Of a stretch of 64,000 nucleotides of DNA, positions 62,986-64,000 are shown piece after piece. The notes below the pieces were generated by a model. It was not told the origin of the DNA, did no database searches, and was given only the letters and a program-made list of their open reading frames with translations. Made by a program: the position numbers and the translations under genes. Source of the DNA: Limnochordaceae bacterium (GTDB lineage: Bacteria > Bacillota > Limnochordia > Limnochordales > DUMU01). Every line of letters starts with the position of its first letter. The first letter of the stretch is position 1. The stretch spans positions 1 through 64,000 of the forward strand of contig JADBKQ010000007.1 of the NCBI GenBank assembly GCA_014896305.1, written 5' to 3'.

Positions 62986-63138
62986 TAGATGGATGAACAG
63001 TGGGGGGTTGTGGCCGAGGCAGCGTAACAGAGGTTTTACCTGTACCGGTGGGCCAACGGCAAAGGCAGGATGGAAGCGGAGTGAACCGATGGATCTTCAG
63101 CGCAGGGTCCCAGAGTGATGATCTGGGAGGGAAACGTA

Positions 63139-63216
63139 ATGAAGAGCCGTCTGGTTTTGGTCGTCCTCAGCCTCATTAGCCTCGCTTTGCTGGGCGCCAA
63201 CTACACGTGGGACTAG
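63139..63216 (+). CDS. 25-residue secreted-peptide-like small ORF
   Basis: ATG at 63139 with GGGAGG about eight bases upstream, 25 codons and TAG at 63214. The product begins MKSRLVLVVLSLISLALLGA and ends NYTWD: a basic start, a hydrophobic core and a short polar tail after LLGA, like an export signal with a five-residue C-terminal peptide. It lies 43 bases upstream of a polytopic membrane protein gene. Too short for routine gene prediction; could be a peptide signal precursor or a leader peptide. Confidence 0.5.
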   Translation: MKSRLVLVVLSLISLALLGANYTWD

Positions 63217-63259
63217 TTTCTGGCTGCTGTCCCACCGGTACCCTTTTTGGAGGGGCGGG

Positions 63260-64000
63260 ATGCTTAGGTTTCTTTGGCAGTGGCGAACGCACAGTCTGGC
63301 GGTGGGCCTTTACATTGGGGCCACCGTGGCCGCTTCTGTTCTCTGCTTTGCAGTTTCTCCCGGCTCACTGGTGGGAGGAACAACCACCCCACTGACTCTC
63401 CTCACCTTTGCGGGATTACTCTTTGCAGCGGAGCTAATGGCGGTGCGGTTGCCACGGGGAGGAGCGGTGTCGGTCAGCTTAGCTATCAGTCTGGTATCCG
63501 TGGCCCTTTTCCCACCACGCTGGGCCTTGGCGGTGAACGCGGCAGGCGTGATGCTTGCCAAACTACTGTGGAAGCGTCCCCTGGACGTGGTGGCGTTCAA
63601 TGGGTCGCAGATTGCTCTGTCCACTGCGGCGGGACAGGTGGTAATGCACGCGTTAGACAGGGGACATGCATTCTCATATCCTCATTCCGTTCTGCCCTTC
63701 CTGGTCGGAAGCCTTGCTTACGTTATTGCCAACCTATCATTGAACGCAGGAATACTGCTGATTGAGCGCAAAGGAAGCTTTTTGGACATTTGGTGGTTCA
63801 ACCTGAGAGCAACTCTGCTGCCCTTTTTGACATTGACGGCGTTGGCCCTCTTGTTGGTGGTTGTTTACTTGAGTCCGTTGCGAGTACTGGGAGTGTTATT
63901 GCTGTTCGGACCGTTGGCGCTAGCCCGGTACTCGCTACTGGAGTACGTCAAACTGCGGGAGAGTCACGTAGAGACCATCGAGGCGTTGGCAGCCGCCCTG
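63260..64000 (+). CDS. Polytopic membrane protein, N-terminal part of a sensor (partial)
   Basis: The frame is open from ATG 63260 to the right edge (247 codons). GGAGG lies six bases before the start. It encodes about seven hydrophobic segments (VGLYIGATVAASVLCFAV, LLTFAGLLFAAELMAV, FLTLTALALLLVVVYL, VLGVLLLFGPLALARYSL), followed by a charged helix (KLRESHVETIEALAAAL) that looks like the linker into a cytoplasmic domain. The LPRGGAVSVSLAISLV and VVAFNGSQIALSTAAG blocks resemble membrane sensor regions found ahead of HD-GYP or GGDEF domains. The output domain is outside the window. Confidence 0.75.
   Translation, partial: MLRFLWQWRTHSLAVGLYIGATVAASVLCFAVSPGSLVGGTTTPLTLLTFAGLLFAAELMAVRLPRGGAVSVSLAISLVSVALFPPRWALAVNAAGVMLAKLLWKRPLDVVAFNGSQIALSTAAGQVVMHALDRGHAFSYPHSVLPFLVGSLAYVIANLSLNAGILLIERKGSFLDIWWFNLRATLLPFLTLTALALLLVVVYLSPLRVLGVLLLFGPLALARYSLLEYVKLRESHVETIEALAAAL

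Follow-up and report, generated by a model that had tools for sequence, protein, structure and literature searches.

The locus and its genes

We examined a window of 64,000 nucleotides, comprising positions 1 to 64,000 of contig JADBKQ010000007.1 of a Limnochordaceae bacterium (assembly GCA_014896305.1), with attention to a very short gene and its neighbors near the right-hand end (Table 1). An earlier note, made from the sequence letters, had picked out a 25-codon ORF with a good ribosome-binding site and a polar tail, NYTWD, and had proposed that it encodes a secreted peptide sensed by the membrane protein that begins 43 nt after its stop. The ORF, its Shine-Dalgarno (SD) sequence, its tail and the 43 nt between its stop and the ATG at 63260 were all confirmed. 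Genes as short as this one are usually missed by annotation. Searches of Pfam, NCBIfam and PHROGs gave no match to the micropeptide, although these libraries rarely include models for genes of this size, and a phage origin, for which PHROGs was among the libraries searched, was looked for and not found. A profile built from eight copies and run over whole genomes in six frames detected the micropeptide once per genome, at the HD-GYP locus, and above E ~1e-3 gave virtually no matches off this locus (73 and 399 whole genomes). Weaker off-locus matches were rejected as further micropeptides, HD-GYP being absent there; several fall at the beginning of longer ORFs for membrane proteins.

Table 1. 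Positions of the micropeptide module's features on the contig
Feature	Position	Strand	Remarks
Upstream protein UP, 232 aa	62287..62985	+	Usual left neighbor of the module
Closing stem P1, 5' strand, GTACCGGTGGG	63042..63052	+	Exact complement at 63231-63241
5' structured RNA domain	63073..63141	+	Model R1: GAGCGRAGCGG, UAGCGG-loop hairpin, SD
Shine-Dalgarno GGGAGGG of micropeptide gene	63125..63131	+	7 nt from ATG
Micropeptide gene, 25 aa, MKSRLVLVVLSLISLALLGANYTWD	63139..63216	+	ORF read, and conservation in relatives
Closing stem P1, 3' strand, CCCACCGGTAC	63231..63241	+	14 nt past the ORF stop
Terminator-like U-run, CCTTTTT	63242..63248	+	Directly after P1
MASE9-like sensor and predicted HD-GYP c-di-GMP phosphodiesterase, 471 aa	63260..64000 in the window, to contig position 64675	+	
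DUF5317 gene	~64769-65374 on the same contig (118 kb)		After the HD-GYP gene

The note had also described the next gene as a seven-helix protein breaking off in what looked like the linker to an output domain. Extension along the contig supplied the remainder: about seven membrane helices and a linker are followed by an HD-GYP domain (PF13487, E 3.8e-39). The metal-binding HD residues and the GYP motif that define this class are both present. Among 96 orthologues, H289, D290, H318, H342, H343, G350, P352 and D371 are invariant and Y351 is nearly so, and therefore the protein should be an active c-di-GMP phosphodiesterase. The AlphaFold2 model is confident (pLDDT 90), and its output domain resembles solved HD-GYP structures, with matches to PDB entries 4r8z and 9rbz. 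Against MASE9 (PF20972), the window protein falls just below the cut-off (20.4 vs. 24.3 bits), whereas its orthologues exceed it (31-46 bits). The modeled membrane domain (residues 13-230) is similar, at TMt 0.62-0.67, to the S components of ECF vitamin transporters; several of these matches have a probability of 1.0, yet E-values of only 0.03-0.3. The S component-like fold suggests that the sensor domain has a small-molecule ligand.

The upstream protein UP matched no family in Pfam or NCBIfam and had no convincing relative among solved structures. Its family, of ~215 aa, is widespread and carries the motif EIHVLA..R.PKQIVRDIES..FG...DHKKISVAQ (e.g. L060:710-1366). The fold of DUF5317 likewise yielded no relative in the PDB. 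The genes after DUF5317 we take, by eye from their translations, to be secA and then prfB; a secA-like gene also lies a short way downstream in the same module region of loci L076 and L244.

Conservation of the micropeptide and its linkage to HD-GYP

A search with the sensor domain recovered relatives that have the same small ORF in their upstream regions. A scan for UP, covering 84,980 named species genomes, added Desulfosporosinus, Thermincola, Carboxydocella, Symbiobacterium, Geosporobacter, Thermosediminibacter, Caloranaerobacter and many uncultured Bacillota, and nearly all UP-scan loci having HD-GYP carry the micropeptide. The apparent absence in L083 was due to a mis-called neighbor, the micropeptide being present in fact, and that in L088 to an assembly gap inside the micropeptide. 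After removal of duplicates the set held 131 loci, with 119 distinct micropeptides, from Bacillota and relatives. The earlier note had made its proposal depend on conservation of the ORF upstream of orthologous sensors and on purifying selection on the peptide tail. The ORF is conserved in this way throughout the 131 loci, always paired with a polytopic sensor; it lies immediately upstream of the same gene, encodes 23-31 aa (mostly 24-29 aa), and is preceded by an SD-like 4-mer in 131/131 loci. The core consensus is L..LvLAGGA, then x-[FYW]-[KR]-W. Its AGGA core is near-invariant, in most copies the tail is preceded by small residues at -3/-1 (GGA, SGA), and the distance from the core to the stop varies from ~3 to 10 residues.

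Selection on the tail is also present, although it is weaker than on the hydrophobic body. Pooled pN/pS values for the tail were 0.48 in Desulfosporosinus and 0.15 in the f9 clade, against 0.12 and 0.04 for the body; the pairs are non-independent, and in certain other clades changes are too sparse for a judgment. The window's own family offers a single comparable pair, with a body pN/pS of 0.30 and too few changes in the tail. Within the micropeptide, conservation is lowest in the tail by the stop, while the body is under the strongest selection. Tails differ among species of one genus, with the aromatic-basic-W pattern kept. To judge from these patterns, the 25-codon ORF is a real, selected gene, and selection at the level of translation on the peptide indicates that it is translated. 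A chance ORF was ruled out by the conservation and the linkage to HD-GYP.

This linkage was followed in 38 informative DUF5317 loci, namely loci of the phylum sample in which the first profile had missed the micropeptide. With HD-GYP the micropeptide is present in 24/24, and without HD-GYP in 0/14. UP loci without HD-GYP (Moorella and others) have no micropeptide, which ruled out a tie to UP, and a tie to every MASE9-HD-GYP protein was ruled out by paralogues outside the module, which are without the canonical micropeptide. Across the loci compared, the linkage of the micropeptide to HD-GYP is obligate. In one locus (L215:3142-4953) a MASE9-HD-GYP protein is fused to DUF5317 in a single 604-aa ORF.

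Genomes without any DUF5317 (7/7 checked) keep HD-GYP and have a deviant micropeptide; these deviants amount to about three independent cases. In family f33 the peptide has 19-20 aa and a short hydrophobic run (e.g. MKKVMRIVARLLSGGSNFMW), interrupted by Arg in several copies, and is unlikely to form a membrane helix. HD-GYP is retained in f33, as is the C-terminal end of the peptide, with small residues, then an aromatic residue and a final W. L236 encodes MKGFVRNLVSGLVDVLTVGAGFRLD, and L016 a signal-peptide-like micropeptide with an ALA site. The same signal-peptide-like form occurs in L021, but there DUF5317 accompanies the other copy in the genome, the canonical one. There are hints here that the membrane-helix form of the micropeptide serves DUF5317 or a joint complex. 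At L021 (1255-1356), and at L016 on the reverse strand in the interval separating UP from HD-GYP, the peptides VKKRIIAILFTVALTLGHAVVALADTARFRWPR and MKRVMAIIFTLALTLGHAIVALADTARLR occupy the homologous place in front of a divergent HD-GYP gene, and each has a classical signal-peptidase site.

Structured RNA around the ORF

As judged by its base pairing in relatives, the ORF sits inside a conserved folded RNA with terminator-like features. A segment ~100 nt ahead of the ORF base-pairs with one directly following the stop, so that the resulting stem, P1, encloses the ORF. P1 was taken at each locus as the best complementary pair, with shuffles handled identically, and in 106/128 loci no more than one of 20 dinucleotide shuffles yielded an equally good stem. 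The 103 good stems comprise 84 different 5' strands, with pairing preserved. In the window, the two copies of the P1 sequence GTACCGGTGGG are the only ones in 64 kb, the P1 score was reached by 3/500 shuffles, and 11 nt separate the ORF stop from the extended stem. The median distance from the stop to the start of P1 is 11 nt (IQR 8.5-13.5). The U fraction after P1 is 0.51 vs. 0.28 (85 loci), most clearly in G+C-rich genomes.

Upstream of the ORF lies a 5' domain with the consensus GAGCGRAGCGG...CCUG...UAGCGG...CAGAG...AGGGGG(SD). Its internal hairpin, P3, covaries in 6/6 pairs with a score of 0.743, compared to 0.255 +/- 0.028 for shuffled controls and 0.221 for the best slid version. The covariance model R1 matched 54/399 genomes at E<1e-3, once each and at the micropeptide locus wherever checked; many of the 54 are training sites, and the f33 genomes and several others, outside the training set, scored 48-64 bits. 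The window copy reached only 17.6 bits (E 0.086) though it was in the training set: in its clade the 5' domain is weak and P1 strong. The SD tends to be paired (0.74 vs. 0.61 with shuffled upstream sequence). The R1 element went undetected in the f9 loci and those related to them; there the peptide hardly varies, and conservation is confined to its codons, with third positions free to change. Therefore, the peptide appears to be conserved without the RNA in f9, and the RNA where the peptide body has decayed in f33. The earlier note had named a translational leader as the plain alternative to a secreted peptide, and the covarying RNA structure around the ORF has lent this alternative unexpectedly strong support.

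Two clades differ in the detail of the 3' side. In f9 loci, including L012-L015, a local hairpin (GCCGAAGTCTAGC...GCTAGACTTCGGT) lies between the micropeptide stop and the HD-GYP start, in the place where P1 ends in other clades. In f33 (L237, L244, L256-L258) the closing stem is a poly-G/poly-C pairing followed by a U-run, and in several copies it directly flanks the 19-20-codon ORF. TRAP-like (G/U)AG repeats were considered and dropped, as the motif is often AAG and lies within the covarying hairpin. Rfam covariance models gave no match over the leader. Across the loci they found only a tRNA and, far upstream in L123 (Geosporobacter subterraneus), a raiA RNA (1181-1425) and a c-di-GMP-I riboswitch (1633-1718), the latter two ~2.5-3 kb upstream of the module. 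The RNA, the peptide and UP are absent from all family libraries searched.

Possible roles of the peptide and its RNA

The explanation that we tentatively prefer, and which we would put at close to an even chance, is that the ~25-codon micropeptide gene lies in a structured, terminator-like leader RNA, ahead of a MASE9-HD-GYP gene after which DUF5317 usually comes, and encodes a membrane partner of the sensor/HD-GYP protein and DUF5317. The peptide would be a single-pass membrane micropeptide, with its N-terminus inside and its aromatic/basic tail at the outer membrane interface, a topology that we infer from the N-terminus being basic and the outer end having both aromatic and basic residues. 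It would join a sensor/HD-GYP/DUF5317 complex as a small partner or regulator and thereby tune c-di-GMP breakdown, the direction of this regulation being likewise what we infer. The surrounding RNA would set the levels of both the peptide and the downstream enzyme, perhaps through limited SD access and putative termination at P1. In favor of a membrane partner are the selection on the protein, including the codons conserved in f9 where the RNA is undetected, together with the HD-GYP linkage, the L215 fusion and the deviant peptides of genomes without DUF5317. The role given to the RNA draws on P1, on the covariation of P3, on the R1 matches at E<1e-3 being confined to the micropeptide locus wherever checked, and on the U-run and the constrained distance from the stop to P1. 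However, the f33 peptide is unlikely to be a membrane helix although HD-GYP remains, and covarying RNA before an enzyme gene usually means cis-regulation, for which a leader peptide alone could serve. A fuller version, in which a new RNA class embeds and controls a micropeptide that binds the phosphodiesterase and sets its activity with DUF5317, is possible but doubtful. If it were true, one leader element would regulate the enzyme in cis as an RNA and also as a protein subunit.

The main rival is a leader-peptide attenuator, in which translation of the ORF, or stalling on it, only controls P1 formation and hence HD-GYP expression, the peptide having no function of its own. As in known attenuators, a short and apparently translated ORF lies upstream, with a terminator-like structure before the gene. 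Attenuation gives the best account of the RNA and of the spacing: P1 surrounds the ORF and starts approximately where a terminating ribosome would have its edge, with a U-rich run after it. The tendency of the SD to be paired, and the C-terminal residues kept in f33 despite the loss of the hydrophobic body, agree with it as well. It is less at ease with the peptide, as the strongest selection falls on the body and the weakest conservation next to the stop, and the core-to-stop distance is variable, unlike that of arrest peptides. In f9, where the RNA element is undetected, the peptide scarcely changes, though another hairpin follows it. Moreover, attenuation needs no hydrophobic membrane-helix sequence, yet one is conserved across dozens of families. 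We consider a pure attenuator unlikely, while regarding it as a serious candidate.

A secreted signal, as the earlier note had proposed, would have the hydrophobic part exporting the peptide and a released tail of 3-8 residues sensed by the MASE9 domain. The small residues at -3/-1 would suit signal peptidase, the tail varies between congeneric species within a fixed pattern, in L021 and L016, ahead of a related HD-GYP, a canonical ALA site precedes DTARFRWPR / DTARLR, and the sensor fold is of a ligand-binding type. However, the invariance of GGA goes far beyond what a signal-peptidase site requires, several tails are just three residues long, export of the f33 peptides by the same route is hard to envisage, and vitamins, not peptides, are the usual ligands of the S-component fold. 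A membrane helix would account at least equally well for the AGGA core and for an aromatic/basic tail at the interface. The part of the proposal that placed a real, selected peptide beside a sensor has stood, whereas secretion gained no support, and we regard it as possible but less likely, indeed rather improbable. Membrane-associated type I toxins are hydrophobic, usually cationic peptides of <60 aa (PMC8309996), and a small hydrophobic peptide whose ends are basic and aromatic, on an mRNA locked by a 5'-3' long-range stem, recalls them. A toxin-like peptide is nevertheless very improbable: the gene is strictly syntenic, inherited with HD-GYP phylum-wide in one copy per genome, unlike mobile toxin loci, and the f33 copies do not resemble membrane helices.

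Known systems each share part of this arrangement. MgrB/PhoQ, CydX and KdpF represent small membrane-protein regulators or subunits of 20-50 aa with a single helix. The micropeptide resembles them as a single predicted hydrophobic helix conserved with one membrane partner, f33 being the exception; it differs in that the putative partner is a c-di-GMP phosphodiesterase and the gene lies in a structured RNA. SHP/Rgg, Phr/Rap and ComS/ComR are peptide-signaling systems with cytosolic receptors. They are alike in having the peptide gene beside a putative receptor, a hydrophobic N-terminal part and a short polar tail, but the gene next door here encodes no cytosolic Rgg, Rap or ComR receptor; the neighbor and putative receptor is a polytopic membrane HD-GYP enzyme. 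RNAIII, which encodes delta-haemolysin, and VcdRP (PMC8672173) are dual-function RNAs. With this kind the module shares a structured RNA of ~200 nt coding in addition for a 25-30-aa peptide; it differs in that its RNA lies in cis, in an operon leader, with no known base-pairing targets. Leader-peptide (uORF) attenuators include tnaC and, in Corynebacterium, the ilvB-II uORF (PMC10272879). They too have a short translated upstream ORF, conserved RNA and a terminator-like stem, but the stem of the module encloses the whole ORF, and the hydrophobic body of its peptide is conserved phylum-wide and tied to HD-GYP and DUF5317. Attenuators, small membrane regulators and dual-function RNAs thus each match in part and none in full.

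In a review of c-di-GMP sensing (PMC8846402), 'small protein' does not occur and MASE occurs once, as MASE1 only. The literature searched, which covered few subscription papers, contained nothing on DUF5317, nothing on HD-GYP in combination with micropeptides and one unrelated match on MASE9, so that an earlier description is possible. The module would provide c-di-GMP phosphodiesterases of this kind with a concrete candidate partner and a concrete RNA, and points to a possible function for DUF5317. It offers a clean natural case for weighing a conserved upstream ORF as peptide against the same ORF as leader, and would be a new, testable control module for bacterial signaling, spread over much of the phylum.

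Finally, the enzyme itself resembles the MASE9 (PF20972) plus HD-GYP phosphodiesterases, in that the orthologues pass the MASE9 cut-off with HD and GYP motifs intact; it is the canonical micropeptide that sets the module apart from paralogous MASE9-HD-GYP genes elsewhere. In L198, L207, L228 and L174, two tandem HD-GYP frames lie behind a single micropeptide gene.
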